From: Streptacidiphilus albus JL83
Lineage (GTDB): Bacteria; Actinomycetota; Actinomycetes; Streptomycetales; Streptomycetaceae
Direction of reading: 5' to 3'
Assembly: GCF_000744705.1 (NCBI RefSeq)
Contig: NZ_JQML01000001.1
Coordinates: forward strand, 4,350,017 to 4,414,016
DNA: 64,000 bases
Shown: positions 22,221 to 58,208 of the stretch, one piece after another
Position numbering within the stretch: position 1 is the first letter of the stretch
Layout: each line of letters opens with the position of its first letter
The notes under the pieces: model-generated
Database searches by the model: none
What the model saw: only the letters and a program-made list of their open reading frames with translations
Told to the model about the DNA's origin: nothing
Translations under genes and position numbers: made by a program

Positions 22221-22265
22221 AGCGTTCCAACCCCCTGTGCATCAACATTGCGGACGGTCAGCACC

Positions 22266-24977: not shown

Positions 24978-24978
24978 G

Positions 24979-27900: not shown

Positions 27901-28464
27901 ATAGCGAACCTGCTCGCCGGAGATAATCTCGAATTGCTCGTCGAATTTGTCCAGCATCTCATCTTGCCACTGAGTGGTCAGCGGCGCGGGACTCAGGATC
28001 AGGATTCGCTCAACTGCGCCTCTGAGCTTGAGTTCCTTAAGCAAGAGCCCCGCCATGATCGTCTTGCCGGCTCCAGGGTCGTCCGCAAGCACAAATCGTA
28101 GTCGCGGCTGGGGCAGCATGTGCCGATAGACGGCTTCGATCTGATGTGGTAGGCCACGGACTCCACTCATTGAAACGGCGAAGAGCGGATCATGGGCAAA
28201 GGCATGTTTGATGCGCTGGGACTCTACCCAAAGGAATAGGTCCTGCGGATCTACAAGTTCGGATTCCGGCGCAGCCTTCGCGAGCGCGGCGTCAAGCTCC
28301 GACTCCAGCACCTGGGTTTCATCCGGCGCCCCATTGGCATGACGAACCCTAAGGAGAAAGACGCCATTCCCAATTAGCTCAATGTGTTCCACTCGCACCG
28401 GGTGTGCAAAATGACCATCGAGCATGATCAAGCGATTCCTGACCCGCTCGCCCATATCATCCAT
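24979..28464 (-). CDS. SNF2-like DEAH helicase with DUF3883-like C-terminus
   Basis: The protein has 1,161 residues from the ATG at 28464, chosen because GGAGGGA lies six bases before it; a GTG at 28497 is also in frame. Motif I is DDPGAGKTIM near residue 128, DEAH is VIVDEAHKA near 230, motif III is LLLTATPHSG, and motif VI is MGRVHRIGQSADCWIFNF. The last 120 residues (SGFDIRSS and RRIEVKGRDAASGDVGLYRT) resemble DUF3883, a PD-(D/E)xK-like nuclease fold. The pattern is that of DrmD-type defence helicases. DrmA, DrmB and DrmC of DISARM are not present. It is the first gene of the defence operon. Confidence 0.87.
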   Translation of the reverse strand: MDDMGERVRNRLIMLDGHFAHPVRVEHIELIGNGVFLLRVRHANGAPDETQVLESELDAALAKAAPESELVDPQDLFLWVESQRIKHAFAHDPLFAVSMSGVRGLPHQIEAVYRHMLPQPRLRFVLADDPGAGKTIMAGLLLKELKLRGAVERILILSPAPLTTQWQDEMLDKFDEQFEIISGEQVRYQLGQSPWQRFPLAISSIDFAKRDDVRDELLRAQWDLVIVDEAHKASAFTKRGREERIVKTKRYVLVEGVAQQADRLLLLTATPHSGDEDRFTRFLGLLDPDQFSTPDLVKKQISNDGNPYFLRRQKEDLVDEHNHALFVDRHVRTQPFQLSTAEYSLYQDVTEYVNTYLGASGGSRGNAVALARTVLQRRLASSLGAIQSSLERRANRLGDLVDQLAVMSPADRSRRLASLGRMPSASDFDDDGETESDDIDEIVDDALATEVSGAEQVSQLRAEVAELRKLIAHADRVRGQGDERKLVALRECLARAEFEELRDGRGKLLIFTEHRDTLDYLEVNLLRQGYSVCTIHGGHSPAERKRIQQDFRQNKQICIATEAAGEGINLQFCHLMINYDLPWNPVRLEQRMGRVHRIGQSADCWIFNFCATNTVEGDLLARLHARLEAMRADLDGRVYDVIGELLTINGIDFERLVKETLANPTRANRDAAVAAINRLNPKKLAEYERETGIALAKKYVDIDWVRGQNFLSDERRLMPEYAEAFFLRAASRQRLRVERRGDQLLRIEHVPVALRSEDLAVVKRRGRPESEYRKLTFRKEERSRVEHEDAVLCSPGHPLFAALAESLERDLAAENVPQGTAAFVDPGARAPYFVHLFAYEVIGEDVRGASELAFAEVVAVIEDHDGLHRGPADVLHTLTPADPMEARGAATLPPEKIKSATDWLRVEIQLARSTAERNSRLDQANLRASYLGEAMDAQKRRLESRWDTYDGKVAAGDDSYRLQRDNADRQLKELKHRRASKLESLSRLGVVRPGKVTHLGSASVVPPRAPKHPDVDVMRANSKEVEEAAVAVAMAFEAAQGWAPEYLGHLMDGSGFDIRSSRTLPGGETQVRRIEVKGRDAASGDVGLYRTEWYAAQRWAAGFWLYVVYSATTTPVLMRVQDPFHTLPNVSEIRQVTGYRVPGASIRAHAVVDTRAAEREA

Positions 28465-28699
28465 GGTCTGTCCCTCCGTCACTCCCGTAGCAGCCACGCA
28501 CTAACCTAGCCGATACCAGCGACATGACAGTGTCATGCCTTCGCCGCAGTCGTGACTCGCAGGGCGATCTACGTCCGCAGGGTGTCTACCAGCTCCGTTC
28601 ATCACGTAGAGCGGCCGGCCAGGTCGTCTCGGGATGGTCCAGCAGCCTGATGAGGGGTCGCAGGGGACACAAGCCAGCAGCAGGTTGGTCGCCGCGCTG

Positions 28700-36400: not shown

Positions 36401-38469
36401 CGGTCGGCGGCGATCCGCACGAGGTTGTCCAGGTTGAAGGTGCCCGCCATCCCGGCCTCGTCCACCAGGACGACGTCACCGGGGCGCAGGGCGAATGAGG
36501 CCCGGTGGGCGGGCACGTTCTTGCCACTGTTGAGCTGGGCGGCGTACGTGCCGCCCGTGTACTCCCAGAGGAACTTGTGGAGGTTCTCGGCGGGCTGCTT
36601 GAGGTCGGCGGCCAGGACGGCGGCGGCTGCGGCGGAGGTGGCGAGCGGGACGACGCGCTGTCCGGCCTGGGCGGCGACGTGGACGTACGCCTGCATCGCG
36701 GTGGTCTTGCCGGAGCCGGCCGGGCCAAGGCCGACGGACAGCAGCCGCGTGTCGGTGGCGAACGCGGTGACGAGGGCGCGCTGGCCCTCGTCCAGGGCGC
36801 GGTTGCGGGCCTCGAACCCGTCGATGGCGGCGCCGACGAACGCGGCGGACAGCCTGGCGGTGGTGGGGGTGGTGGCCGCGGTGACGAGCCGATTCTCGGC
36901 ATCGATGATGTTGCGGCTGGTGTAGCGGGCGGAGGCGTGCTGGACGAACACGCTGTCGCCATTGGAGCGCCGCAGTTCCTCGGGTTCGGTCAGCAGCGCG
37001 GGGGCGTCGACGCGGATGCTGTGGACCGGGGAGACGGCTTCGGTGACGATCGCCTCGACCAGCGCCTGGTGCTCGGCGGCGTCGGTGGTGGGGTGCTCGG
37101 AGCGGGCCAGGCGCTCGGCGTGGGCGCGCAGGTTCCACACCGTCCACACCGCCCGCTCCCCGGAGACGGCGGTGATCACGGCGGCGGCCAGGGTCGGGAT
37201 CTCGACCGGCTCCTGCTCACCGTCCTCGGCGGTTACGGGGGTGCTTCCGGCGGCGGGGACGGCCGCCATGACGCGGGCGATGACGTCCTCGCCGTGGGCG
37301 GCGGTGACGGTCTGGGCCCAGTCGGCGCGCATCTCCTGGAGGGAGCGGGCGGCCTTCTTGCCCTCGCGGGTATCGAGGTTGGCCTGGCGGGCGAGCTGGT
37401 GGGTCATGCCCCGGGAGGGGTCGTGCCCGTGGTCGCGGCGGTACTCGCGCAGCAGTTGCTCGTAGCGGGCTTCGATATCGGTCCGGCGGGAGGAGAAGTG
37501 CGTGATCGCCTCGACGGGGACGCCGACGATCTCGCGCACCGGCTGGCGCTTGGTGACGGCGTCCTCGCGGGCCTCGAAGGTGACGCCGAGGCGCGCGGAC
37601 AGCTCGCTCTCGAAGCGGGAGTTGTAGAACTCGGAGGCCGCCACCGTCATGGCGTAGAGGGCGCGGGCGTCCAGCGAGCGCCACTTGCCGTCCACGCCCA
37701 TGACCTTCGAGGAGATGGCGACGTGCGTGTGGAGATTGGGATCGCCGGCCCGCGAATCGAAGTGGTCGAAGGCGACCGCGATCAGGCCCCTGGTCTCGAT
37801 CTGGGCCTGGCCGGTGCTGCCGGTGCGGGTGAACGCGGCGTGCTCTTCGAGCATCGCGAACGCGGCGTCGCGGGCCGCTTCGTGGGCCTCGCGCACGGCG
37901 GCGCGGACTTCCTCGCGCTGGTCCAGCGCCCACAGCACGGCGGCGGACTTGACCGGCGCGAAGACGACGTCGAAGCCCGCGACCGCGGCGCGCTGCCGGG
38001 TCGACTCCTCACGCTGGACCTTCTTGATCTCGGCCTGGGTGGGCGTGCGGCGGGCCTGCTTCTCGATGACGGCCAGGCGCTTGTCGACGCGCTCGTTGAA
38101 GGGGTCGAGTGCCTTGTACTCGGGGAAGGCGCGGCCCAGGGTCGCGGCCTTGATCGCAGCGGCGCGTACGGCCTTGAGCTGGTCGTCGTTCATGTCGGCG
38201 CGCACGTTGGCGGCCAGGTGCTCGGCGATGATCCGCTCGGCGTCGGGGTGCTGTCCGAGGCCGTACAGGAGCTTCATCTGCTCTTCGGTCACGGTGGTGC
38301 CGTCGAGCCCGAGCAGGGGGGCACCTCGCCCGAGCCAGATGCCCGGCGGGTTGCCCTTCTGCGTGTAGTACTCGGCTGCCGACTGTCCCCGCTGACGCTG
38401 TACGTCGCCGCCCGCGACCTGGCGCGTCAGGTAGGTGTAGCCGCCGGAGGTGAGCTTGTGGATGGTCAT
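33451..38469 (-). CDS. MobF-family relaxase-helicase (TrwC/TraI-like)
   Basis: The product is about 1,672 residues from the ATG at 38469. The relaxase domain occupies about residues 1-320, with the metal-binding three-histidine motif in HFDSRAGDPNLHTHV near 236-250 and candidate catalytic tyrosines near the start (YTYLTRQ). A RecD-type helicase follows, with Walker A GLGPAGSGKTTAM near 580 and VLVDEAGMAG near 660. The last 600 residues are Ala/Gln-rich and repetitive. The enzyme would nick the transfer origin and unwind one strand for conjugation. No TraB/FtsK-like pump or type IV coupling protein is in the window. Confidence 0.93.
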   Translation of the reverse strand: MTIHKLTSGGYTYLTRQVAGGDVQRQRGQSAAEYYTQKGNPPGIWLGRGAPLLGLDGTTVTEEQMKLLYGLGQHPDAERIIAEHLAANVRADMNDDQLKAVRAAAIKAATLGRAFPEYKALDPFNERVDKRLAVIEKQARRTPTQAEIKKVQREESTRQRAAVAGFDVVFAPVKSAAVLWALDQREEVRAAVREAHEAARDAAFAMLEEHAAFTRTGSTGQAQIETRGLIAVAFDHFDSRAGDPNLHTHVAISSKVMGVDGKWRSLDARALYAMTVAASEFYNSRFESELSARLGVTFEAREDAVTKRQPVREIVGVPVEAITHFSSRRTDIEARYEQLLREYRRDHGHDPSRGMTHQLARQANLDTREGKKAARSLQEMRADWAQTVTAAHGEDVIARVMAAVPAAGSTPVTAEDGEQEPVEIPTLAAAVITAVSGERAVWTVWNLRAHAERLARSEHPTTDAAEHQALVEAIVTEAVSPVHSIRVDAPALLTEPEELRRSNGDSVFVQHASARYTSRNIIDAENRLVTAATTPTTARLSAAFVGAAIDGFEARNRALDEGQRALVTAFATDTRLLSVGLGPAGSGKTTAMQAYVHVAAQAGQRVVPLATSAAAAAVLAADLKQPAENLHKFLWEYTGGTYAAQLNSGKNVPAHRASFALRPGDVVLVDEAGMAGTFNLDNLVRIAADRGATVRLLGDYRQLSSVESGGALRLIAAQAGAVELSHLHRFSNKAEADATLKIRVGDGGGLDFYLANNRVLGGSRTAMVEAAYEGWKADMLAGKTTLISAASNTDVTALSARARDERVAAGQVEADGVLLRDGNRAGKGDWIVTRDNNRKLTTARGRDFVKNGDAWQVLKRHEDGSLKVRHMGHRGRLTLPSEYVGAHVQLLYASTVMRSQGGTVDTAHPLVTEDMSREDLYVQLTRARHKTTIYTATHDLLPFDTDDQLDLPKHDPDTFAAREVLERVLGREGAQLSATDTIRNAQEEAVSLATLAPRHQHATETLTTPYYHQLVHRLLGPALAEQITADDAFTAVARALRNAEAAGWQPERLLAAATWRGDLATADSPAQALAWRLNTITEDRPAPAHLNAPTTADTTRYAALVAQLTSLPAHRFDPESATAQPAALHIAPAAAQAPDAHPHVSTDTLKSYATAAANLLDTTTDKVTAHPQWPHLAGALAAAERTGHDTTALLTTAATQATTASDPVTALTRAARTTLATAGLPEAHQNTPEALRHQALTADVLGAEHATRARNENTWPALTAALRRAESAGHEPAALLRQVAESRPLTGADSLSQVLAWRIGRHLAANAPATTAQQSHCAETELWRTLAWTLKTIENTGTTAETVLSEATGRTALPGLLQHAQQQALAHTRAVSGRADLPAWISAVPRSTTANPVHHEYLTDSAALIANRFTVLAERTVENRPDWSQTLGDTPQDPTQLAQWQHHLAVVAAYRDQYKVTDDSAAQPAGPYIEEGRTGHHAYWQAAAAAVTARRIANAPDAPAVTTADSDQQARSQLAADVYRVLPEADQAEILRTVVTRTGATWLASLPRLDDAALAQQHLAEQVSTVLAERHQLTTEATQPQQPQAEERHQPTLAERRRAGRQAERQAHREQLQQRGGQTTRTVRRVPARWAESADRQNQAPAQRSAAPQPQVQQPPQVRQDQQGPRLR

Positions 38470-38752
38470 CAACGCGACCACCCCGCAACGCTCGGGGCCA
38501 GGGCACGGCAAAGCGCGAAGGCTATATCAGCCCCGCTATTTCTGCGTACCCACTCGATGTCATGCAGATACTTTATCCCCCGCACAGCGGACCATGCTCA
38601 GAATATCTGCAAGAGGTGTCTGGATCGCTCCTTCTGGCTGGCATATGGCCAGGCCAGAGGCACTTCAGTGGCTCGCAAGTGACTTCCGTCTCGGTATTTC
38701 TATCTCTATTTCTCGTTGTTTATCAGTGTCTCTCATCGGGGGTTTCAGGGGC
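38470..38752. other. Divergent intergenic region, candidate control/oriT region
   Basis: No gene. It separates the relaxase from the divergent coiled-coil gene and is A/T-rich around 38550-38740, with pyrimidine-rich repeats (TATTTCTATCTCTATTTCTC). Transfer origins often lie beside the relaxase gene, but I cannot point to a nic site. Confidence 0.35.
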
Positions 38753-48776: not shown

Positions 48777-49232
48777 TCAGCGGGGCAGGCCGGCGGTCCG
48801 GAGCAGGCCCGCGAAGCTGCGGGCGACGGCGGGGAGGTCATCGCGGTCGCGCGTCCACGTCGGTGCGCCCTGGCAGCGGTTCTGTGCGGCGGGCTCGGCG
48901 TAGATCGGGCCGTGGTATAGGGCGTAGTCCTCGCCGGGGGCGGGGATGCGCAGTTCCCAGGTGCCCAGCTCGTCGCACATGATCTGAACCGCCCAGGTCC
49001 GGGCCTCGTGGACGATCACGACGGTCCGGGGCGCGCGGGGGATGCCGAGTTCGGTGAGCCGGTGGTCGAGATCGAGCGCCACGGCAAGGCGCTCGGCGTA
49101 GGGGAGTTCGGCGACCGCCTCGGGGGTGAGCCAGCACCAAGCGCATCCGGGGCCGTCGGTGTGGCCGCACTCGGCCCGCTTGTCGTCGTTGATCTCCTGG
49201 AGACGGGCCATGTCGAGAGTCGCCGTGGTCAT
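48777..49232 (-). CDS. Hypothetical protein with Cys/His cluster
   Basis: The protein has 151 residues from the ATG at 49232, with GGAAGG seven bases upstream. A compact Cys/His group (ECGHTDGPGCAWCWL, residues about 17-31) suggests a small zinc site. The rest is alpha/beta (RTVVIVHEARTWAVQIMCDE). No family is recognised. It is the first gene behind promoter cassette 2. Confidence 0.62.
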   Translation of the reverse strand: MTTATLDMARLQEINDDKRAECGHTDGPGCAWCWLTPEAVAELPYAERLAVALDLDHRLTELGIPRAPRTVVIVHEARTWAVQIMCDELGTWELRIPAPGEDYALYHGPIYAEPAAQNRCQGAPTWTRDRDDLPAVARSFAGLLRTAGLPR

Positions 49233-49270
49233 TCGAGCGCCTTCCGGTCGGGTTCTTCGTGGGCGGCGGC

Positions 49271-49328
49271 CGGGGTTGCCCTCCCCGACCAACAAGACAA
49301 GTTTATATCAGTGATGGTTTTCAGGCAA
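49271..49328 (-). promoter_or_regulatory. Promoter-leader cassette 2
   Basis: Minus strand: TTGCCT (49328-49323), 17 nt, TAAACT (49305-49300), then the CGGGG/CCCCG leader stem (49287-49283 with 49275-49271). Upstream, 49331-49440 retains the ends of the long repeat (ACTGAC-GTACC-GTCACT at 49364-49380 and a GGCGGCACCAGCACCGCCAC end) but lacks the structured core. Confidence 0.75.
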
Positions 49329-49447
49329 GTCCGAGGGCAGACCTTCCCCATGTCGGAAGAATGACTGACGTACCGTCACTTACGAGCGCATACGTCCACC
49401 TTCGCCCCCGATGGCGGCACCAGCACCGCCACCGGGAGCACTGGCCG

Positions 49448-49726
49448 TCAGAGGTCGTCGGTCTCGGCGAGTCGCTCGTAGGCGGCGTCCTCGCGATAGC
49501 GAAAGTAGGCCGAGTGGGTCAGCGCCTCGCGGTCACCGGGAACCTTGAGGCCGTCGGCGAGGTGGAGCAGCGCGGTGATCACGTCGCGGATGATCACCGA
49601 CGCGCCCTCCGGCTTGGCGGGCTCGCCTTCGTAGGGGCCCGGCGCGAACGCGAGGAAGGCATGGACCGCCACCAGAGCGGCGTCAGCGCACTCGTCGGCG
49701 GTGCGCGCGGGAACAAGGGCGGTCAC
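49448..49726 (-). CDS. Small helical protein
   Basis: The protein has 92 residues from the GTG at 49726, with CGGAG six bases upstream. It is almost all helix (DECADAALVAVHAFLAFAPG, VIIRDVITALLHLADGLKVP). No family is recognised. It lies 48 nt after the DUF2958-like gene and is probably co-transcribed with it. Confidence 0.6.
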   Translation of the reverse strand: MTALVPARTADECADAALVAVHAFLAFAPGPYEGEPAKPEGASVIIRDVITALLHLADGLKVPGDREALTHSAYFRYREDAAYERLAETDDL

Positions 49727-49774: not shown

Positions 49775-50197
49775 CTACTCGGCCAGGGCGGGGATGCTGG
49801 CGGCGCGCGTGGGGGTGAAGTGGAGATCGCGCTCCACGATGATCGGAACCGCCACCTGCCCCTGACACGCCGACGGCGTGACACAGAGCTCCTCCAGCTC
49901 CACCAGGTGGATGTAACCCCATTCGCCGGTCGGGTAGTTGACCCGCGCCCACCCGAACGCCAGGCCGGTGGATGGGTCCACCTCGGCGATGTACCAGTCG
50001 GAGCCGCCAGTGAAGTAGTGGATGTGGAAGACCTTGTCTCCGACCGGCTGATCCTCGGTCGCATACAGCCCTGGGATCTTGGCGAGTTCGGCGAACGGCG
50101 GATAGAACGCGTGCCCCCTGATGTGGCGGTTCTGCTCAGGCATCGCACCCCAGGCCCAGGTGCCGGGTTCGATGTTTGCGCTGTTCAGGTCGGTCAT
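49775..50197 (-). CDS. DUF2958-like protein
   Basis: The protein has 140 residues from the ATG at 50197. The order PGLYATEDQPVGDKVFHIHY, TGGSDWYIAEVDPSTGLAFG, then GEWGYIHLVELEEL and a closing VERDLHFTPTRA fits DUF2958, a small plasmid and integrative-element family often beside single-strand DNA and antirestriction genes. The function is unknown. It is the first gene behind promoter cassette 3. Confidence 0.68.
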   Translation of the reverse strand: MTDLNSANIEPGTWAWGAMPEQNRHIRGHAFYPPFAELAKIPGLYATEDQPVGDKVFHIHYFTGGSDWYIAEVDPSTGLAFGWARVNYPTGEWGYIHLVELEELCVTPSACQGQVAVPIIVERDLHFTPTRAASIPALAE

Positions 50198-50233: not shown

Positions 50234-50294
50234 GCGGGTTGCCCTCCCGCCGACCTGATGACATAAGTCTATAGCATTGAGGGTTTTTAGGCAA
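50234..50294 (-). promoter_or_regulatory. Promoter-leader cassette 3
   Basis: Minus strand: TTGCCT (50294-50289), 17 nt, TAGACT (50271-50266), then a leader stem GCGGG/CCCGC (50250-50246 with 50238-50234). The stem differs from cassettes 1 and 2 at both arms in a way that keeps pairing, and the loop TTGCCCT (plus strand) is unchanged. Confidence 0.75.
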
Positions 50295-50598
50295 GTCCGA
50301 GGGGTGTGGCCCCCTCACGCCGGATAGCCGACTGACAGACCGTCAGTTACGAGGGCGCACCTCCCCCGTCCCCCTGACAGGCGCCCGGGGTCCGGGGCTG
50401 AGAGGCCGCCCGGGTCAAGGGCCGGCCGAAGGCCGGTGGCGAGCCACGCGACCGAAGGGAGCGCCCTTGACGCGGGCGGCCGGCCCCGGAGAATCAGGGC
50501 CGCGCAGGGGGCCGGGGGAACCGCGCAGCGGGGCGCCCGGAAAAAGGCCAGCCGCGCCGCAGGCGCGCCCGCTCCCCGCCGCCCCCGGCTGCGGCACC
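50269..50598. repeat. Long direct repeat, copy 1 (330 bp)
   Basis: Identical by eye to 52838-53167 at a constant offset of 2,569. It spans the promoter of cassette 3, a dyad ACTGAC-AGACC-GTCAGT (50331-50347) and the structured element at 50361-50520. The two copies flank the ssb operon in direct orientation, so recombination between them would delete that operon as a circle. Confidence 0.9.
50361..50520 (+). ncRNA. Structured element, copy 1 (candidate RNA)
   Basis: Three nested helices are visible. The outer one pairs 50363-50376 with 50505-50518 (C-rich with G-rich, one mismatch). The middle one pairs around GTCCGGGGC and GCCCCGGA. The inner one is 18 nt long, 50405-50422 with 50463-50480, with a single G-G mismatch. 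Inside the inner helix are hairpins CGGCC-GAA-GGCCG and GTGG-CGAG-CCAC and an ACCGAAGGG segment, giving a multibranch junction. Changes in copy 3 keep the inner pairing as G-U if the plus strand is the RNA. A DNA role (origin or cruciform) is the alternative. Confidence 0.5.
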
Positions 50599-50627
50599 GG
50601 GCCTTCGCTCCGGTGGTGGTGCCGCAG
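50589..50627 (-). terminator. Hairpin terminator
   Basis: CTGCGGCACC (50589-50598) pairs with GGTGCCGCAG (50618-50627), with a further CACCGG/CCGGTG pair inside, seven bases past the stop at 50634. The left arm is the end of the long repeat; copy 2 lacks the right arm. Confidence 0.7.
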
Positions 50628-50633
50628 TGGGTG

Positions 50634-51548
50634 TCAGGCTGGGGCCGGGGCGGCTTCCTCCTCTGCGGGGATCTCCACGGCGAGTGACGGATGGGTGATG
50701 GCGATTCGCCGCAGGTGGTTGCGGGCGTCGGCGCGGGCGGCCAGGCTGGGCGAATCGCGGGCGGCCTCGGCGAGGTACTGGGTGAAGGTGGCGAGCGCCG
50801 CTGTGGTGTACAGGGTGATCCGGCGGGGCTGGAAGACGGCCGCGGGGTCGCCGAGGCGGCGGGCGGCCGACCATGCCCGGTAGACCTCTTGGTCGCCGGG
50901 GGTGAGTGGCTGGTGTCCGGCGAGTCGCCCGCTGAGCCAGTCGGCCAGATATCCGCCGACCTCGGCGGTCGCGGTGGGGCTGGCCTCGGGGGTGTGCAGC
51001 CGGGTCCATCGGTCGAGCTGGGTCTCCAGCGCGGACAGCCGCTTGACGGCGGGCCGCAGGTGGTCGGCTTCGCGGGTGATCATCGAGAGTTGGTCAGGGG
51101 CGACGGACCGCAGGTAGCGGGCGTGCTGGGTGTGTCGCTGGGGGTCGGCGCGGTGGTTGGCGATGATCGTTTGTCCGATGTCGCGGGCGCGGGTTCGGGC
51201 GGCCTCGGTGGCCAGCTCGTAGGTGTTCCGGTGGAGCTGCTCCCAGGGGTCGCGGTGGCCGGTCGTCCCCGGGGGCGGGATGGTGATGCCGTCGTAGATC
51301 CATGAGTTGTGGACGGCGAGGCGATCGGTGTAGCCGCTGGGATTCTCGGTCGGGTCGTAGCGGCCGGAGGTCAGGCGCAGTCGGGTGTAGGCGTCGGGGT
51401 CGTCGCGTTCGCCGGGGGCGGCTTCGGGGTGGAGGGTGATGGTTCCGGTCACGTAGGGAGCGCGGACGGTGTAGTAGGTGAGGCCGGTCTGCCCGTACTC
51501 GACTTCGTAGCGCAGGAGCAACCGCGAGGCAGTGTGGGTGGTGATCAA
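50634..51548 (-). CDS. Hypothetical plasmid-backbone protein
   Basis: The protein has 304 residues from the TTG at 51548, with GGAG five bases upstream; the frame beyond it crosses a terminator hairpin. The N-terminal third is beta-rich (LLRYEVEYGQTGLTYYTVRA, SGRYDPTENPSGYTDRLAVH), and the rest is helical with Arg-rich heptads (LRPAVKRLSALETQLDRWTR). The last residues are EIPAEEEAAPAPA. No family is recognised. It lies in the ssb operon region between the two long repeats. Confidence 0.6.
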   Translation of the reverse strand: MITTHTASRLLLRYEVEYGQTGLTYYTVRAPYVTGTITLHPEAAPGERDDPDAYTRLRLTSGRYDPTENPSGYTDRLAVHNSWIYDGITIPPPGTTGHRDPWEQLHRNTYELATEAARTRARDIGQTIIANHRADPQRHTQHARYLRSVAPDQLSMITREADHLRPAVKRLSALETQLDRWTRLHTPEASPTATAEVGGYLADWLSGRLAGHQPLTPGDQEVYRAWSAARRLGDPAAVFQPRRITLYTTAALATFTQYLAEAARDSPSLAARADARNHLRRIAITHPSLAVEIPAEEEAAPAPA

Positions 51549-51562
51549 GGGCTCTCCGGGTG

Positions 51563-51590
51563 GCCGACCGGGCGCGGTGGCCCGGTCGGC
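51563..51590 (-). terminator. 11-bp perfect hairpin terminator
   Basis: GCCGACCGGGC (51563-51573) with GCCCGGTCGGC (51580-51590), 14 nt past the stop at 51604. Confidence 0.75.
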
Positions 51591-51603
51591 TCGGGGGTCG
51601 CAG

Positions 51604-51879
51604 TCAGCGGCGGACGGCGGACGGGTTGGGCAGGACGGGAGGGATGCCGTGCTGCTCGGCAACGCTGTTGATCTGCGTCGGCAGTCGCATGACGACGGTC
51701 TGAAGCCACAGCAGGCCGACGACGACCGCGAGCATGAGGTAGACGGTCAGCAACTGGTTTCGCAGTGCGCACACCGCGCCGATGCCGGTGAGGGCGAGGA
51801 CGGCGGCGAACAGTGCGCGCTGGATCGTGTTGATGGTGCGGGTGAGGCTGGCCTTCGGGGATGTCGGCGCGTCGCTCAC
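51604..51879 (-). CDS. Small two-span membrane protein
   Basis: The protein has 91 residues from the GTG at 51879, with AAAGG seven bases upstream. Two helices (ALFAAVLALTGIGAVCAL and LLTVYLMLAVVVGLLWLQTV) are separated by a short basic turn. No family is recognised. Small membrane proteins of this kind are common on actinobacterial conjugative elements. Confidence 0.6.
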   Translation of the reverse strand: MSDAPTSPKASLTRTINTIQRALFAAVLALTGIGAVCALRNQLLTVYLMLAVVVGLLWLQTVVMRLPTQINSVAEQHGIPPVLPNPSAVRR

Positions 51880-51913
51880 GGGCGAACCTTTCATCGGTGG
51901 GGTTCGGCGGGAG

Positions 51914-51944
51914 CCGGGCGGGGCGCCGGTTGCGCCCCGCCCGG
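51914..51944 (-). terminator. 12-bp perfect hairpin terminator
   Basis: CCGGGCGGGGCG (51914-51925) with CGCCCCGCCCGG (51933-51944), six bases past the ssb stop. Confidence 0.8.
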
Positions 51945-51950
51945 GTCGGA

Positions 51951-52469
51951 TCATGCCGTGGCCGGGATCGACCAGGCGTTCACGGCGGGCGGGGTGGTGG
52001 GCATGGGCGGCCACTGCTGCGCGGGCGCCGAGCCCTGGGCAGGCGGCGACCACGGCTGCGCGGGGGCTCCGGTCGGCTGAGCGGGCGGCTGGCCGGCCGT
52101 TCGGCCGCCGGACTTGGTGATCGTGGCCGAAGCGAACCGGAGCGTCGGGCCGATCTCTTCGATCAGCAGCTCGGTGTAGACGCGGCGGGGTCCGTCGCTC
52201 GGCTGCTGAACGCGCTGCTTGAGCGCGCCGGAGGCATGCACGCGGGTGCCCTTGGTGAGCGACTCAGCGATGTTCTCGGCATACTGTCGCCACGCCACAC
52301 ACGGCATGTAGAGGGTGTCACCGTCGCGCCAGCGCCGGTTCGCGGCGTCGTAGGTCTTCTCGTTCGCGATCACGGTGAAGTTGACCACCGCCGCGCCGCC
52401 GTCCGTGTACTTGAGTACGGGGTCGTCCGCGAGGTTGCCCGTGATGGTGATCTTGGTCTCGCCTGCCAT
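51951..52469 (-). CDS. ssb: Single-stranded DNA-binding protein
   Basis: The protein has 172 residues from the ATG at 52469, with GAGGAG seven bases upstream. The OB fold occupies residues 1-110 (ITITGNLADDPVLKYTDGGA, WRQYAENIAESLTKGTRVHA, then a beta strand near YTELLIEEIGPTLRFA). The tail is Pro/Ala/Gln-rich and ends in NAWSIPATA rather than the acidic DDxPF tip of chromosomal SSBs, so it may not recruit the usual partner proteins. It would coat single-stranded DNA during transfer or replication of the element. Confidence 0.9.
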   Translation of the reverse strand: MAGETKITITGNLADDPVLKYTDGGAAVVNFTVIANEKTYDAANRRWRDGDTLYMPCVAWRQYAENIAESLTKGTRVHASGALKQRVQQPSDGPRRVYTELLIEEIGPTLRFASATITKSGGRTAGQPPAQPTGAPAQPWSPPAQGSAPAQQWPPMPTTPPAVNAWSIPATA

Positions 52470-52482
52470 GGTGCTGCTCCTC

Positions 52483-52767
52483 TTAGCGCTCGATGTGGGC
52501 GCCGCCGCGCGGGCCCAGGGCGATCCGGACGTCAGGACCGCCGTCGAACGGCACACCCACACCGGCCATCTCTTCCGCGTCGGCGAGCATGCGCCCGTCA
52601 GTGATCGCGTAGAGGTCGACCCAGGACTGCCCGTTGCAGCCGCTGTAGGGATCGCGTGCCCGCGCCCGCAGCCGGTCCGCCGCTTGGCGGATCGACATGA
52701 GGGCCTCGGGGCCGGTGCTGCCGGAGGAGGGGGTGGTGAAGTACGCGATGTAGCGGGGGTTCGCCAT
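52483..52767 (-). CDS. Hypothetical small protein, first gene of ssb operon
   Basis: The protein has 94 residues from the ATG at 52767, with CGGAGG five bases upstream. It has a beta-rich start (RYIAYFTTPSSGS), a helix (ALMSIRQAADRLRARARDPY) and a compact end. No family is recognised. It lies 13 nt ahead of ssb and directly behind promoter cassette 4, so the two should be co-expressed. Confidence 0.62.
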   Translation of the reverse strand: MANPRYIAYFTTPSSGSTGPEALMSIRQAADRLRARARDPYSGCNGQSWVDLYAITDGRMLADAEEMAGVGVPFDGGPDVRIALGPRGGAHIER

Positions 52768-52806
52768 GTCCGCCTCCGGTGTGCTGTGGTCTCCGTTCGT
52801 CGGTCG

Positions 52807-52863
52807 GGGGTACCATCCCCTCCCAACAAGAACAATACTATAGCATTGAGGGTTTTTAGGCAA
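52807..52863 (-). promoter_or_regulatory. Promoter-leader cassette 4
   Basis: Minus strand: TTGCCT (52863-52858), 17 nt, TAGTAT (52840-52835), then a leader stem GGGG/CCCC (52820-52817 with 52810-52807). It drives the 52767 gene and ssb. The leader word CTTGTTGGGAGGGGATGG is shared with cassette 5. Confidence 0.75.
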
Positions 52864-53167
52864 GTCCGAGGGGTGTGGCCCCCTCACGCCGGATAGCCGA
52901 CTGACAGACCGTCAGTTACGAGGGCGCACCTCCCCCGTCCCCCTGACAGGCGCCCGGGGTCCGGGGCTGAGAGGCCGCCCGGGTCAAGGGCCGGCCGAAG
53001 GCCGGTGGCGAGCCACGCGACCGAAGGGAGCGCCCTTGACGCGGGCGGCCGGCCCCGGAGAATCAGGGCCGCGCAGGGGGCCGGGGGAACCGCGCAGCGG
53101 GGCGCCCGGAAAAAGGCCAGCCGCGCCGCAGGCGCGCCCGCTCCCCGCCGCCCCCGGCTGCGGCACC
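52838..53167. repeat. Long direct repeat, copy 2 (330 bp)
   Basis: Identical by eye to 50269-50598. It contains the same promoter spacer, the dyad at 52900-52916 and the structured element at 52930-53089. Identity ends on both sides within a base or two of the stated limits, which points to a recent duplication or to gene conversion. Confidence 0.9.
52930..53089 (+). ncRNA. Structured element, copy 2 (candidate RNA)
   Basis: Same sequence and fold as copy 1, offset by 2,569. The inner 18-nt helix is 52974-52991 with 53032-53049. It lies between the stop of the gene at 53194 (minus strand) and promoter cassette 4, the same relative place as the other copies. Confidence 0.5.
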
Positions 53168-53193
53168 ACCACCGCCACTGGGAACACCGATCA

Positions 53194-53481
53194 TCAGAAG
53201 CTACGCGTGGTGTCGAACAGATCCGCATCTACAGCGGGGCAGATCGGCATGGTCACGGTTCGTTGGTCGGGGCCGGGGCGACCTACAAGCCAGTGTGCCG
53301 TGAGGTGCTGGGCGTGCTGGCACTCGGGGTTGTGCTCGTCGCCGACGGCGGGGCGTTCGGGGGCATCGCGGTGCTCGTCCGGCTCCGGGAAGAAGAGAAG
53401 GGGTTCCGGTTGCGGGGCGATCCTCGACCTGCGGACCAGGGCCAGCAGGGGCTCCGGGCGGTTCTCGGTGTCCGACGGCAA
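53194..53481 (-). CDS. Hypothetical protein with TTG start
   Basis: The protein has 95 residues from the TTG at 53481, with AAGGAG five bases upstream. It is Pro/Glu-rich, with a His/Cys stretch (DEHNPECQHAQHLTAHWLVG) that could bind metal. No family is recognised. It ends 27 nt before the long repeat copy 2. Confidence 0.5.
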   Translation of the reverse strand: MPSDTENRPEPLLALVRRSRIAPQPEPLLFFPEPDEHRDAPERPAVGDEHNPECQHAQHLTAHWLVGRPGPDQRTVTMPICPAVDADLFDTTRSF

Positions 53482-53704
53482 CGGCGCTCCTTGGTTCGAT
53501 GGGCTTGGGTGAGCGTAGTCAGCGGTGGTGGACGCTGGGCACCTTCGGTGGAGAGGTCACGCTGGCTCGGCCTGTGCTTTAGCCTGGAGGTCCGCTGCCC
53601 CTCCGTTCGCGGGGGTGCCGTGGTCTCTGGCCGGTGGATGCGTGCCAACGCCCTTCGGGGTACCCGCTCGCGGGTGTGTCCACCGGCCTTCTGCGTGTCT
53701 GCGG

Positions 53705-54391
53705 TCAGCGGCGGATGGTCGGCCGGTTGACCGGCTGGACCGGCGGCGGGGGCTGGATCAGCGGTGCTGGGGTTTGCACCGGGGGCCTGGCGGCCGGACT
53801 CGTCGGCCGGGCGGGCTGCTGCTCGGTGAGGTCGGCCAGCATGGCGCGCAGCGGCCCGGCGTTGCCGTTGAACGAGGCGATCGACGCGAGGGTGTTGCGG
53901 TCGGGGTCGAGCCGGGTCCAGTCGACGGGGTGACCGGCGTCGGCCGCGAGCTGGCCGAGGAACGCGCGCTGAGTGCGGCCGTTGCCTTCGCGGAACGGGT
54001 GCAGCGCGTTGACGTCACCGTAGAGGTCGGCGAGGCCGGTGAGGAAGCTGTCCCGGTCGAGACCCTGGAGGTGGTTCTGGCGCCGGGCGAGGCGCCCGAA
54101 GGTGTCGGCGGCGAAGTCCGGGATCATCCGGACGAGGCAGAACTGCGTGGTGTCCTTGGCGATCTCGATGGAACGGGTCTGCCCGGCCCACGGGTAGATG
54201 CTGCCGAAGATCTCGCGGTGGAACGCTTGGAGGTGGGCGAGGTCGTAGTTGCCCGGGATCGGCCGCTCGGCGAGCCGGGTGAGCCTGGCCGCTGTGATGT
54301 CGGCCTCGGCTGCGGCGAGGGCTTGGGGGTCGGTGATGCCGAGGCGGTTGCGCAGGACTCCGCTCGCCGGGTCGGCGTAGGGGTCGGCCAT
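53705..54391 (-). CDS. fic: Fic-family toxin (AMP transferase)
   Basis: The protein has 228 residues. The Fic motif HPFREGNGRTQRAFL near residue 130 is complete, with the catalytic His and the GNGR anion pocket. The flap region (QTRSIEIAKDTTQFCLVRMI) is also present. Fic enzymes transfer AMP from ATP to target proteins; VbhT-type ones modify DNA gyrase and topoisomerase IV. An unusual Pro-rich tail of about 45 residues follows the domain. The antitoxin gene lies two bases upstream. Confidence 0.92.
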   Translation of the reverse strand: MADPYADPASGVLRNRLGITDPQALAAAEADITAARLTRLAERPIPGNYDLAHLQAFHREIFGSIYPWAGQTRSIEIAKDTTQFCLVRMIPDFAADTFGRLARRQNHLQGLDRDSFLTGLADLYGDVNALHPFREGNGRTQRAFLGQLAADAGHPVDWTRLDPDRNTLASIASFNGNAGPLRAMLADLTEQQPARPTSPAARPPVQTPAPLIQPPPPVQPVNRPTIRR

Positions 54392-54393
54392 GG

Positions 54394-54597
54394 TCAGTCG
54401 GCCGGCTGCTGGTCGTCCGGAACCCGGTGGCGGGCCTCGGCGCGGGCAACGAGTTCGTCGGCGGAGATCCGGCCGGCGACGTAGGCCGCGGCGTCGTCGT
54501 CGTAGGCCGCGGTGGTGCTGAGGCCCTCGGCTCGCACGGAGGCGGAGGCGGAGCCGACCGCTCGGCGGCGGTCCTCGGGGGTGGTCGGGTCGTGCAT
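54394..54597 (-). CDS. VbhA-like antitoxin of the Fic toxin
   Basis: The protein has 67 residues from the ATG at 54597, with AAGGAG eight bases upstream. The inhibitory helix carries SVRAEGL, which fits the (S/T)xxxE(G/N) motif whose Glu blocks ATP binding in the Fic active site. The C-terminal half (AYVAGRISADELVARAEA) is the usual VbhA-domain helix pair. It ends two bases before the toxin gene. Such pairs stabilise plasmids and islands. Confidence 0.85.
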   Translation of the reverse strand: MHDPTTPEDRRRAVGSASASVRAEGLSTTAAYDDDAAAYVAGRISADELVARAEARHRVPDDQQPAD

Positions 54598-54747
54598 CGT
54601 CGATTCTCCTTGGTTAACGGCGGCGAGCGCAGTCGTTCACATCAGCTTACGTGGGTGCGGTGGCGAGCGCCCTGTTCCCAGGGGGGCGGGCGATGCGCAC
54701 GGCCGGGCGGGCGCGGCAGGTGGCCGGCCCGCTCGGTGGTCGCGGGC

Positions 54748-54780
54748 GTGGGGGAGGGGGCTCGATGCCCCCTCCCCCAC
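54748..54780 (-). terminator. 14-bp perfect hairpin terminator
   Basis: GTGGGGGAGGGGGC (54748-54761) with GCCCCCTCCCCCAC (54767-54780), 33 nt past the stop at 54814 and ahead of the antitoxin gene, which therefore probably has its own promoter in 54598-54747. Confidence 0.82.
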
Positions 54781-54813
54781 GATGCCGCGCGCCGCCCGGG
54801 TCGGGCGGCAGGA

Positions 54814-55488
54814 TCAGGCGGCGAGCAGCTGTTGCAGGTCCGCCGGATCGGCCAGCGGCGTAACGCTGGCGACGGCGCTACCGGTGCCAATGAGGGCGGC
54901 TTGTACGGCCGCCCGGCCCCGCTCGCGGCTCAGCTTCTCCTGAAGCGCCGCCGCTTCGGTCTCCATCTCTCGGATGGCTTCCTGGTGGCGGCGGTGTCGC
55001 GCTGGGGCATGCTCCTGGTCGTGGGCACGGCGCAGCTCGGCGGCCCAAGGTCGGGAGAGCATGTGCCGGGTGATCGTGTAGACGATGGCTGCGGTCCTGC
55101 GCCGCGTGCCCTCGGGTGCCTCGGGCGCGTAGGTGCCGCCGCTCTCCCGCCGGACCACCAGCCACCAGGGGCCGGTGGGCTTCATCGCCTCGGCGTGGAA
55201 GCTGGCCCGGTCGGCGAGTTGGACGCCGAAGACGGTCGGCGAGTCCTCGAAGTGGTGGATAAACGGACTCCGCTCGGGCTTGCCGTAGGTGATCTCCATG
55301 GAGTCCCCGTCGCAGCAGTCATGGTGGTAGTGCCCCGACTCCCACCCCACCGTGATAGTGCCCTTCAGCTCCGCGATCCGGTACAGGGCGGCTCCCTGTC
55401 CCCAGTCCAGGGTGATCGTGGCATGCATGCCGTAGCCGCCCGGGGTGGTGAGGGTGACGTACTGAGGGGCGGTCGGTCGGATGTCCAT
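54814..55488 (-). CDS. Hypothetical plasmid-backbone protein
   Basis: The protein has 224 residues from the ATG at 55488, overlapping the previous stop by one base (TGATG). The N-terminal 130 residues are beta-rich (YVTLTTPGGYGMHATITLDW, FIHHFEDSPTVFGVQLADRA), and the C-terminal part is a charged coiled coil (EAIREMETEAAALQEKLSRE). No family is recognised. It is translationally coupled to the next gene upstream and ends at a strong terminator. Confidence 0.65.
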   Translation of the reverse strand: MDIRPTAPQYVTLTTPGGYGMHATITLDWGQGAALYRIAELKGTITVGWESGHYHHDCCDGDSMEITYGKPERSPFIHHFEDSPTVFGVQLADRASFHAEAMKPTGPWWLVVRRESGGTYAPEAPEGTRRRTAAIVYTITRHMLSRPWAAELRRAHDQEHAPARHRRHQEAIREMETEAAALQEKLSRERGRAAVQAALIGTGSAVASVTPLADPADLQQLLAA

Positions 55489-56039
55489 CACGCCGCCGCC
55501 TTCGCGATCGCCGGACCCGCGAAGTCCTCGAAGTGGGGCAGGGCTCCGGCGGCGAGGTCCTCGACGGCGGGCAGGTTGCTCCAGTGCGAGGCGGCGTGCT
55601 TGTAGGCGGTGGCCCAGAGGTTGAGCTGGTCGGTAAAAGCGGGCAGGTCGGTGACCACGGTCAGCAGGCCGCCGAGACTGACGCGCAGCTGCGGCGCTCC
55701 GGTCGGGCTGGCCGCGCCGGTGAGCGCGTTCACCGCCGCCGGTCGCACCGGGTTGTTCAGACGGACGTGCCCCGACACCTGGCTCTCGGGCTCCGGGATC
55801 GTCCCGGTCTCGACACCCGCGAACAGGGCATCGGCCTGGTCGGCGGCGGCCGACCACGCGGTGTACGCCTCGTAGGCGGGCTGAGGGTGTGCAATGCGGA
55901 CCCGGGCGGAGGGCATGGTCAGCAGGATGGTCCGGGCGATCAGCACGGCACGGGCCTCATGGCGGCCAGCGAGGTGCACGGCAAGGTCGGTCCGGACGGC
56001 GGGCGGTCGGCGGTCAGTGGTGGCGAGATACAGGTGCAC
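55488..56039 (-). CDS. Hypothetical protein downstream of parB
   Basis: The protein has 183 residues from the GTG at 56039, with GGGAGAG six bases upstream. An ATG at 56096 is in frame but lies in the loop of a perfect hairpin that should terminate parB, and its extra residues are Pro/Thr-rich, so I reject it. The protein is alpha/beta with an Ala-rich middle (ARTILLTMPSARVRIAHPQP). No family is recognised. Confidence 0.6.
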   Translation of the reverse strand: MHLYLATTDRRPPAVRTDLAVHLAGRHEARAVLIARTILLTMPSARVRIAHPQPAYEAYTAWSAAADQADALFAGVETGTIPEPESQVSGHVRLNNPVRPAAVNALTGAASPTGAPQLRVSLGGLLTVVTDLPAFTDQLNLWATAYKHAASHWSNLPAVEDLAAGALPHFEDFAGPAIAKAAA

Positions 56040-56077
56040 GCGGAACTCTCCCGGTCTGGGTGACGTGGTCGTGGGGC

Positions 56078-56108
56078 CGGGGGTGTCCGGTGCCATCGGA
56101 CACCCCCG
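56078..56108 (-). terminator. 12-bp perfect hairpin after parB
   Basis: CGGGGGTGTCCG (56078-56089) with CGGACACCCCCG (56097-56108), 43 nt past the parB stop at 56152. Confidence 0.78.
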
Positions 56109-56151
56109 GCGTTGAGCTGGAAGGCGGGACGGGCGTCGCCCCTCCCCTGGA

Positions 56152-57867
56152 CTAGGCCGCGATCGGCTCGCTGATCTCCGGGTAGCGGTCCTCCCAGTCG
56201 ACCACGCACTCCCCCTCTCCCGCCTCGCCGTTCAGCTCATCCGGCTCGTCGTCCGCTACGGCCTCCAGGTGCCTGATCAGCTCGGCGATCGGGTGATCGT
56301 CAGAACCCTCGGCGTCGGGGTCGTCCTCTTCCTGGAAGGTCTCCGCGTCCTGCTCGTCCACCAGTTCCGCACCCGTGCTCTCGCCCTCGTCCTCCAGGTG
56401 CTCGTCATCCGGCACCTGGTCCTCCTGCTCTCCCTCCTGTTCCTCGGGCTCCTCGGCCGCCGCCTGCCTGGCGGCCTCCGCCTCCTCCGCCACCTTGGCA
56501 GCCGCACGTGCTTCTGCCTCTGCGATCTTGGCTCGCAGCGAGGCGATCAGGTCCGCCTCCGGCTCCGTCAGGTCGTAGCCGTAGTCCATGAGGAACTCCA
56601 GCCACTCGACTGCTGCGGACTTCTTGCCGTGGCCCAAGGCGACGTGTTGCATTGCACGCTCGCCACGGGCGGCGACCATCGCGAGCAGCACCAGCGGTAG
56701 CCGCGCCTCAGCCATCCGTCCGATGAACCGCCCGAACCGATCAGCGCGCTCGTCGTCGCCCGGCACGCGGAGGAACTCCAGCGCCTCGGGGCCGCTCTCA
56801 TCGGCTCCAGCCTGGTAGAGCATTGCGAGGACCTTCCGGGTCATCCCCTTCGGCACCTTCTTCGAACGGCACAGCTCCTGGATGAACTCGCACCGCACCT
56901 CGGCGGCCATCTTCAGCGCTTCCCGGCGCTCGTTGGCCGCCTGCTCCGCTGCTTCAATGGCGGCCTCCTGCGCCGCGCTGCGGAAGCGGTACCCGAAAGG
57001 CACCTGGTGCCCGTACTTGTGGGGGTCGCGACACAGGAACGTGGCCTTAAGATCGCCCGGCTGGTACTCGTTGAAGTAGGCGACGTTTCCGGGGCACGAC
57101 TTGTGGTTCTCCGGGGTCAGTGCGACTCCGTCGGAGTCGGCCAGATTGGACAGCCGGACCTCCTTGGAACCGCCCCAGCTCAGCTCGCGCGGTTCGCCGA
57201 CAATGACGACACCAGCGGACTTGAGGGCCCGCGTGGTCTCCTCCCGGAGCACGGCCCGTTCCGCTTTCTGTCGCTCCTTCCGGAGAGCCCAGCTCAGCGT
57301 CCCGCCCTTCGCAATCGTTTCGAGCAGGCGCTTGTACGCCTTCGGGTCGCCCTCGAACTCGGCAATCGCCTCGGCGTCCTCCAGCGTCATGGTGCCCTTG
57401 TCCACGGCGGACCTGGCGGCCTTGGGCATCGCAGCCAGCGCGATCGAGGCTCGGACCTTCTTCGGGTCCTGAGCGACCCGGGTAGCGATCTGCTCGTCAT
57501 CGAGGCCGAGTTCGATGGACAGTTGCGCGAAGGCGTCGGCGATCTCGCTCGCCCGCATGTCCATGCGGTGGAGGTTCTCGACCAACTGTCCAACGATGCG
57601 CGCCTCCTCGGCGGACAGATCGTTGCGGACGATGAGGTCAACGTTCCGCCCGGCCTCGATCGAGCCCTTCGCCCGCCGGTTGCCGAGGATGATCGCGAAG
57701 CCATCCTCGTGCGGCGCGGCGATGACCGGCTGGTAGAGGCCGTTCTCTTTGATCGAGCCGACGAACTCGGCGTCCAGCTCCACCGGGCGGACGTTGCGCG
57801 TGAAGACCAGCTCGTTCGGATCGAAGTCCTCGATGAGCTGCTTCGCAGGGGCAACAACGGTAGTCAC
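56152..57867 (-). CDS. parB: ParB/RepB/Spo0J-family partition protein
   Basis: The protein has 571 residues from the GTG at 57867, with GGAGG four bases upstream. The N-terminal ParB nuclease-like domain spans about residues 15-110 (VRPVELDAEFVGSIKENGLY, QPVIAAPHEDGFAIILGNRR with the GxRR motif), and the HTH follows (ASEIADAFAQLSIELGLDDE). It is longer than chromosomal ParB, with a 300-residue extension ending in an acidic tail of Glu/Asp runs. No ParA gene is adjacent, so it may act as a plasmid ParB-like regulator or work with a host ParA. It is the first gene behind promoter cassette 5. Confidence 0.88.
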   Translation of the reverse strand: MTTVVAPAKQLIEDFDPNELVFTRNVRPVELDAEFVGSIKENGLYQPVIAAPHEDGFAIILGNRRAKGSIEAGRNVDLIVRNDLSAEEARIVGQLVENLHRMDMRASEIADAFAQLSIELGLDDEQIATRVAQDPKKVRASIALAAMPKAARSAVDKGTMTLEDAEAIAEFEGDPKAYKRLLETIAKGGTLSWALRKERQKAERAVLREETTRALKSAGVVIVGEPRELSWGGSKEVRLSNLADSDGVALTPENHKSCPGNVAYFNEYQPGDLKATFLCRDPHKYGHQVPFGYRFRSAAQEAAIEAAEQAANERREALKMAAEVRCEFIQELCRSKKVPKGMTRKVLAMLYQAGADESGPEALEFLRVPGDDERADRFGRFIGRMAEARLPLVLLAMVAARGERAMQHVALGHGKKSAAVEWLEFLMDYGYDLTEPEADLIASLRAKIAEAEARAAAKVAEEAEAARQAAAEEPEEQEGEQEDQVPDDEHLEDEGESTGAELVDEQDAETFQEEDDPDAEGSDDHPIAELIRHLEAVADDEPDELNGEAGEGECVVDWEDRYPEISEPIAA

Positions 57868-57905
57868 ATGTCCTCCAACAGGCGCGTGGTCTCTGTCCGT
57901 TGATC

Positions 57906-57963
57906 GGGGGTGCCATCCCCTCCCAACAAGACCAATACTATAGCACCAAGGGTTTTATGTCAA
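57906..57963 (-). promoter_or_regulatory. Promoter-leader cassette 5
   Basis: Minus strand: TTGACA (57963-57958), a perfect -35, 17 nt, TAGTAT (57940-57935), then a leader stem GGGG/CCCC (57920-57917 with 57910-57907). It drives parB. It is the most diverged copy, yet the spacing, -10 and leader are kept. Confidence 0.78.
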
Positions 57964-58053
57964 CTCTTCAAAGTCGTCGCACATGTCGGTTCCATGATCA
58001 TTTATGGGCGGGCGGAAGGTACGGCGGCGCGCCTGACCAGCCCATACACACCT

Positions 58054-58208
58054 CCCCCGTCCCCCTGATAGCTGCCATGGGTCCGGGGCTGAGAGGCTGC
58101 CCGGGTCAAGGGTCGGCCGAAGGCCGGTGGCGTGCCACGCGACCGAAGGGAGCGCCCTTGACGCGGGCGGCCGGCCCCGGATACTTGGCCGCGGAAGGGG
58201 GACGGGGG
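58054..58208 (+). ncRNA. Structured element, copy 3 (diverged, candidate RNA)
   Basis: The outer helix pairs 58054-58066 with 58196-58208 perfectly, repairing the mismatch seen in copies 1 and 2. The middle helix pairs the GCCATGGGTCCGGGGC side with GCCCCGGATACTTGGC, mostly intact. The inner helix pairs 58096-58113 with 58154-58171; its two changes from copy 1 are both C to T opposite an unchanged G, so pairing survives as G-U on the plus strand. The GTGG-CCAC hairpin differs only in its loop. This pattern is what conserved RNA structure looks like. Confidence 0.55.

Follow-up and report, generated by a model that had tools for sequence, protein, structure and literature searches.

Three copies of a structured element upstream of minus-strand genes

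In a 64,000-nucleotide stretch of the 9.9-Mb chromosome of Streptacidiphilus albus JL83 (hereafter, the window), an earlier note, made from the letters and their open reading frames (ORFs), pointed to a highly structured element of about 155 nt present in three copies, all placed alike with respect to a minus-strand gene and a promoter. The three copies are indeed there (Table 1), and each shortly precedes a minus-strand gene, from which it is separated by a conventional promoter-like sequence. These promoter-like sequences, whose -10-like parts are at 50266-50271, 52837-52842 and 57937-57942, are related among the three units. Copies 1 and 2 belong to one repeat of about 300 nt (50269-50568 and 52838-53137, identical over at least 300 nt) and, being parts of it, were counted once, while copy 3 shares 87% identity with them over 160 nt. 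A fourth unit, serving the gene at 48777-49295, has kept the promoter-like and tail sequences and lacks the hairpin; this hairpin-less unit contrasts with the four element copies found in genome G184.

The nested helices around a multibranch core described in the earlier note were borne out by folding, the core being a four-way junction made of the GTCAAGGG/CCCTTGAC stem and three small hairpins. With RNA parameters, the minimum free energy of the plus strand was -122.7 kcal/mol in copy 1 (z -6.6) and -123.2 kcal/mol in copy 3 (z -9.5), values equalled by none of 200 shuffled sequences. With DNA parameters, the plus strand reached -67.0 kcal/mol (z -5.0) in copy 1, versus -62.7 kcal/mol (z -3.7; equalled by 1 of 200 shuffles) for the minus strand, and -65.8 kcal/mol (z -7.2) in copy 3, versus -54.7 kcal/mol (z -5.0).

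Table 1. Element copies, promoter-like sequences and neighbouring genes in the window
Feature	Position	Strand	Remarks
Element copy 1	50361-50520	+ (structured strand)	Upstream of DUF2958 gene
Element copy 2	52930-53089	+	Identical to copy 1; upstream of 72-amino-acid ORF and ssb
Element copy 3	58054-58208	+	87% identical; upstream of ParB-like gene
Core, copy 1	50414-50471	+	GTCAAGGG arm, three mini-hairpins, CCCTTGAC arm (four-way junction)
Core, copy 2	52983-53040	+	
Core, copy 3	58105-58162	+	
-35-like, copy 1	50467-50472	+	TTGACG, paired
-10-like, copy 1	50489-50494	+	GAGAAT
-35-like, copy 2	53036-53041	+	TTGACG
-10-like, copy 2	53058-53063	+	GAGAAT
-35-like, copy 3	58158-58163	+	TTGACG
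-10-like, copy 3	58180-58185	+	GATACT
Conventional promoter-like sequence, copy 3 to ParB-like gene	57937-57963	-	TTGACA, 15 nt, TATAGT
Fourth unit, hairpin missing	49290-49460	-	Promoter-like (49299-49337) and tail (49386-49452) similar to other units
DUF2958 protein gene	49775-50197	-	PF11171
Single-stranded-DNA-binding protein (SSB) gene, ssb	51951-52469	-	PF00436
72-amino-acid ORF	52598-52816	-	First gene after copy 2; homologue precedes ssb in G184
ParB-like gene	56152-57867	-	PF02195, PF17762, TIGR00180
MobF relaxase-helicase gene	33451-38511	-	PF08751 TrwC, NF041492 MobF

Covariation and strand-specific structure

From 52 chosen sequences, 48 diverse ones were aligned with MAFFT (alignment A5) after leaving out three second copies of a pair and one sequence with a long insert (L041); model-fitted alignments (A2-A4) were kept out of the pair counts. 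In the consensus, a 15-pair stem is separated by a 1x1 mismatch from the 8-pair GTCAAGGG/CCCTTGAC stem, which three hairpins join to form the four-way junction. This structure, being read from A5 and its relatives, is not independent of the alignment, in which pairing was found in 88.8% of 1680 cells. Its helices covary among homologues: both sides had changed in 27 of the 35 pairs, and the covariation score was 0.450 versus 0.130 in shuffles, none of 500 being as high, and at most 0.120 in slid registers.

The changes are also biased with respect to strand. The spacer stem has at least 11 of its 15 pairs in register in 41 of the 51 elements, and among the 615 positions of these stems there were 46 G.T and 5 A.C pairs, which argues for selection on the structured strand as a single strand. 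The earlier note had remarked on C-to-T changes opposite an unchanged G in the diverged copy, and had stated that pairing survives them, as G-U, only if the plus strand is RNA. Such pairing-preserving changes on the plus strand turned out to be general, but the need for RNA did not hold, since G.T pairs are tolerated in single-stranded DNA as well as G-U pairs are in RNA. GNA triloops, which are exceptionally stable in DNA, made up 110 of the 191 hairpin loops predicted in 75 cores; GCAA accounted for three of the 191, and TTCG was not among the 30 commonest loop classes. The third hairpin ranges from GC-GA-CC-GAA-GG-GA-GC to a bare GCGAAGC.

A promoter-like signal in the 3' arm

A regular-expression search found 212 elements, seven of which were dropped for having N in the flank, and the remainder gave 51 non-redundant 3' arms. 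An ANNNT motif begins 18-21 nt past the CCCTTGAC arm in 43 of them (at 19 nt in 24 and at 20 nt in 12). Shuffling the whole arm 2000 times placed the motif there in a mean of 2.9 arms and a maximum of 10, and 5000 shuffles restricted to positions 17-30 gave a mean of 7.0 and a maximum of 17; on the 5' arm, read from the other strand, it was present in 6 of 51. If TTGACN is taken as the -35, the spacer is 15-17 nt long (18 nt once) and the -10 reads xANNNT. The covariance model ends 12 nt past the core, and the -10 was not selected for in the searches because it lies beyond both the model and the regular expression.

According to the pairing profile obtained with DNA parameters, positions 2-17 are paired with a probability of 0.74-0.96, positions 19-27 of no more than 0.52 (about 0.3 at 20-22) and positions 31-42 of 0.66-0.87. 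The geometry is therefore that of a double-stranded -35 and spacer, with the -10 placed within an internal loop. The conserved A and T of ANNNT fit a -10 that is already unpaired, since, once the non-template strand has melted, it is these two -10 bases that are flipped out and gripped by sigma region 2.

Relatives and distribution

A first alignment (A1) of eight cores (window copies 1 and 3, four from two genus-mates, and one each from a plasmid of Streptomyces NBC_00158, L012, and of Nocardia NBC_01327, L013) was used to build the covariance model R1. The search for relatives that the earlier note had put forward was productive, as R1 matched 39 of 200 genomes of the family (E 1e-3) and 81 of 394 genomes of the class (E 1e-4), in 28 of 138 genera, the window's own genome being counted in both; in a sample of the phylum, it matched 5 of 296 genomes (E 1e-5), including the window's own and another of its family. 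The pattern search of named genomes yielded at least 105 stretches, and the 80 loci listed were all from Streptomyces except one from Streptacidiphilus; viral contigs did not contain the exact pattern. Copy 1 had no match at 1e-5 among plasmid records and one poor match among phage records. Copy 3 had eight partial matches among plasmid records, two of which entered the first alignment; the other six were left unused in it, and one of these (L014) was not matched by R1. Weak genus-level blastn matches in G001, G006 and G012 were also left out. At the gathering score, no Rfam family matched anywhere in the window, and at E values up to 5 the sole sub-threshold match (56077-56108) fell outside the elements.

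In Streptomyces, elements occur as inverted pairs some 0.5-2.9 kb apart (L049-L057, L062-L066, L068 and many of L069-L148), one copy at each end of an island. In ten inspected pairs, the island ends were inverted repeats (such as GGGGCCGCCCGCTTCTT), and both candidate promoters would face inward. Most island interiors have no ORF or carry a cargo gene (NUDIX, GntR, aldo/keto reductase, glyoxalase or CYTH): a crude ORF caller based on third-position GC content found no inside ORF in 32 of 41 pairs and 16 inside ORFs in all, and the nine of these run against Pfam matched GntR, NUDIX (two), aldo/keto reductase, CYTH, glyoxalase, a weak TPR and nothing (two), with no transposase among the nine. 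In one genome, two islands at different loci share 99% identity over 786 bp.

Gene context and strand polarity

A MobF relaxase gene (PF08751, NF041492) was linked to the element in nine loci (the window, G150, G184, G004, G013, G505 twice, G347 and G470), and in all nine the relaxase gene had the elements on its 5' side and was encoded on the strand opposite to the structured one. Counted by element, the structured strand was opposite to the linked relaxase gene in 7 of 7 cases, the same polarity being found by coordinates in G150, G184, G004 and G013, and it was opposite to the ParB gene in 14 of 15 and to the SSB gene in 12 of 15. The four copies of G184 lie 100-210 nt ahead of homologues of the window ParB, the 72-amino-acid ORF (before ssb), the DUF2958 protein or a 172-amino-acid protein. 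In another family (G525, L222), copies precede ParB-like, ArdC-type antirestriction (PF08401) and ssb genes, and a fourth copy in G525 faces the other way. In five related elements (G000, which is the window's genome, G150, G184, G004 and G013), the cluster is flanked on its other side by a gene for a VirD4-like coupling protein. In the F plasmid, ssb and a ParB-like gene are upstream of traM to traK on the same strand, and the origin of transfer lies between these two groups of genes. Since the window has the same gene order and polarity, its plus strand would be expected to be the transferred one.

A different relation was observed in pSAM2-like rolling-circle actinomycete integrative and conjugative elements (AICEs), which are mostly from one other family. 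There, the element is downstream of the RepSA initiator gene (PF20199, 'pSAM2') and stands between an excisionase-type gene (TIGR01764) plus an ORF of about 100 amino acids and the integrase gene (PF00589), the names RepSA and excisionase being those of PF20199 and TIGR01764. The structured strand was the coding strand of RepSA in 16 of 16 cases, of the integrase in 17 of 17 and of the excisionase (Xis) in 12 of 12. Because the strand displaced in rolling-circle plasmids has the polarity of the rep mRNA, the structured element is found, in one orientation, on the expected displaced strand. Thus, polarity flips relative to the neighbouring genes between the two types of mobile element and is constant relative to the strand expected to become single, and it is mainly for this reason that we prefer a function in single-stranded DNA over one in RNA.

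Other features of these loci deserve mention. The relaxase matches of G004:C47 and G013:C4 hold in-frame stops (one and two TGA, respectively), and these elements may be decaying. In the 43,679-bp contig G505:C2, relaxase matches recur about every 20.4 kb (2411, 22857 and 43285), and the first two are each followed by an element, which suggests tandem units. The window also carries, about 5 kb from the relaxase gene, an Hma defence system at 19404-28497 (HmaC 19404-22220, HmaB 22266-24977 and HmaA 24979-28497, according to the best PADLOC matches). At 53705-54391 there is a gene for a Fic-domain protein, conserved in related elements, for which a match to PDC-S04, a candidate defence family, was obtained (E 1.3e-71). 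A tRNA-Ala called by ARAGORN at 34572-34665, on the opposite strand inside the relaxase gene, is probably spurious.

Proposed function and alternatives

The structure, covariation, strand bias, -35/-10 geometry, polarity and gene context described above lead us to propose, with a probability of roughly 0.7, that the element is a single-stranded-DNA promoter or single-strand origin that works like the Frpo promoters of the F plasmid and is unrelated to them in sequence. The suggestion in the earlier note of a DNA structure used in replication or transfer is thus supported by the strand polarity in both AICEs and relaxase-type elements and by the -35/-10 pair in the 3' arm. We infer RNA polymerase binding, transcription, priming, silence in the duplex and the identity of the transferred strand, which would combine as follows. 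The plus strand of the integrative and conjugative element (ICE), on entering the recipient or when displaced in rolling-circle replication, would fold into a long hairpin whose cap is the four-way junction, with its three mini-hairpins that mostly have GNA loops. The stem would offer a double-stranded -35 (TTGAC) and spacer, then the internal loop with a pre-melted -10 (xANNNT), followed by a clamp stem. The RNA polymerase of the host, carrying its housekeeping sigma factor, would bind there and transcribe leftward on the plus strand; as the 3' arm would be the non-template strand, the polymerase would read the 5' arm and run left into the minus-strand genes beside every window copy. In the window, mRNA for the leading-region genes (DUF2958; the 72-amino-acid ORF and ssb; ParB-like) could in this way be made before a second strand exists. 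The same RNA could prime second-strand synthesis, as in a single-strand origin (sso), which is likely to be the main job in pSAM2-like elements. Once the DNA is double-stranded, the hairpin would fall silent and the nearby conventional promoter would take over.

Several observations weigh against this proposal. Regarding the promoter signal, TTGAC belongs to the search pattern, so that conservation of the -35 is not independent evidence, and one clade has TGGAC instead; the first base of the -10 is rarely T, the motif is missing at 18-21 nt in 8 of the 51 arms, and several of these have ANNNT at 22 nt. The minus strand of the element folds too (z -3.7 and -5.0, DNA parameters). With respect to polarity, the structured strand is that of the ParB gene in 1 of 15 cases and that of the SSB gene in 3 of 15, these being one divergent element in L222 and two AICE loci with an SSB match beyond the integrase; in L195/L229, a 50-codon RepSA fragment that the 60-residue filter of the census dropped is opposite to the element. 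The counts, moreover, come from related loci (one ICE family, and AICEs mostly of one family) and represent fewer independent events than the numbers suggest. As to transfer, no VirB4-like AAA_10 match, as would belong to a complete secretion system, was linked; G525 has no relaxase match at all; and in eight genomes examined, eight relaxase matches had no element nearby. One of the eight is in G184, and another is a second relaxase locus of the window's genome (G000:C1:2248270-2249454), which is 78% identical in the N-terminal domain. None of six marker genes was near 31 of 71 elements, although a separate search linked two of the 31 (in G004) to a relaxase, and four model matches missed by the regular expression and hence outside this census (L188, L225, L232 and L235), when checked apart, had no marker gene either. 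In Streptomyces, many copies belong to inverted pairs on the chromosome that have no known transfer genes. Finally, pIJ101, whose sti region is a known Streptomyces sso, did not match the model (best score 16.1 bits with filters off, which can also be taken as a background level for GC-rich DNA).

Strand polarity and GNA loops would fit any function in single-stranded DNA, and the folded strand might be read by a factor other than RNA polymerase, at a primase or primosome site or at a relaxase, HUH transposase or integrase (attC-like) site, the ANNNT motif being incidental. The AICE element does adjoin the integrase gene, and the inverted pairs of Streptomyces have terminal repeats in the style of mobile elements. 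Such a site, however, gives no reason to expect a -35 followed after 15-18 nt by a strand-specific -10 that lies in an internal loop, or copies directly ahead of several separate genes of the presumed leading region, and we consider it unlikely. An RNA from the structured strand, either noncoding or cis-regulatory (the earlier note had raised a new noncoding RNA as one possibility), would account for the strong covariation and for the G.U-type strand bias, and in AICEs the element does precede the integrase gene on its coding strand. In relaxase-type elements, however, the structured strand is antisense to the neighbouring genes, so that no single transcription logic spans both contexts, and neither the predominance of GNA triloops nor the lack of an Rfam match speaks for RNA, all of which makes this explanation improbable. 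Even less probable is a dispersed palindromic repeat, like a miniature inverted-repeat transposable element, or a bidirectional terminator or insulator, with no single-strand function, despite the frequent location of copies between convergent genes in Streptomyces and the occurrence of two almost identical islands at different loci. A duplex or terminator role predicts neither the G.T:A.C asymmetry nor the polarity nor the -10, and this reading was dropped because the strand asymmetry and the -10 contradict it.

If the single-stranded-DNA promoter is real, the pre-melted -10 in an internal loop and the four-way-junction cap make the family findable with a covariance model, and the element marks the transferred strand of any carrier. 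That there is an actinobacterial family of such promoters, unrelated in sequence to Frpo and serving leading-gene expression on entry in ICEs, as a single-strand origin in AICEs and in Streptomyces islands with an inward-facing copy at each end, of which we found no description, is a broader claim for which we see the chances as evenly balanced. Expression from single-stranded DNA has so far been documented, in the literature consulted, for enterobacterial plasmids, and a covarying family in about one fifth of the sampled genomes of the class (81/394) would extend it to a major bacterial group. Such a family would also serve as a sequence-based marker of the transferred strand and of the leading region, which is where anti-defence genes are located. 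For pSAM2-like AICEs it would suggest a single-strand origin, and studies of the recognition of a pre-melted promoter by a housekeeping polymerase would gain a compact substrate.

Comparison with known systems

The telomere palindromes of Streptomyces form single-stranded DNA hairpins with GNA-type loops and are similar to the element in this respect, but the sites described here are internal and have promoter signals. The virion RNA polymerase of phage N4 uses as promoters small DNA hairpins with three-base loops, which resemble the mini-hairpins of the core; the polymerase is a different one, however, and here the hairpins merely cap a much longer stem that bears -35/-10-like signals. Orientation-specific folded single-stranded DNA is also characteristic of the sso of rolling-circle plasmids and of ICEBs1, where, according to PMC4595007, the sso is orientation-specific and sso in general recruit host RNA polymerase or primase to synthesize the second strand. 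The AICE copies, lying on the rep coding strand, are like sso; by contrast, ICEs carry several copies, each just ahead of a gene.

The F plasmid contains, upstream of ssb, a repeat about 90% identical and 5.4 kb apart, together with ssb and ParB-like genes. These repeats are Frpo2 and Frpo1, which act on entry, as stated in PMC9849209 and PMC11541004; the former gives 92% identity and a distance of about 5 kb, and reports that Frpo folding rebuilds the -10 and -35 boxes and is required for early expression of the leading genes. Frpo-like sequences upstream of ssb were found in PMC11541004 by BLAST with five known sequences and a consensus search for -35/-10, and words starting with 'actino' are absent from its main text. 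Sequence homology to Frpo was not detected, the best score of the covariance model in the 30 kb of F that hold both repeats being 11.8 bits (E 1). The likeness to the Frpo/ssi sequences of F-like and IncI plasmids consists instead of a presumed leading region with a MobF-type relaxase, of near-identical copies about 5 kb apart upstream of ssb and near a ParB-like gene, and of a fold of the presumed transferred strand that presents a -35 and a -10, as in the Frpo descriptions cited. Unlike Frpo, the element has a four-way-junction cap with GNA mini-hairpins, bears its -10 in an internal loop and is also found in rolling-circle AICEs. In the literature searched, judged by titles and abstract openings and with the broadest topics sampled in part, no actinobacterial single-stranded-DNA promoter is described, and the string 'palindrom' does not occur in the available text of two AICE surveys (PMC3218068, PMC9513070). 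The statement in the earlier note that no named element has this layout therefore agrees with the literature search as far as actinobacteria are concerned, but the Frpo/ssi promoters found in F-like plasmids do have such a layout.

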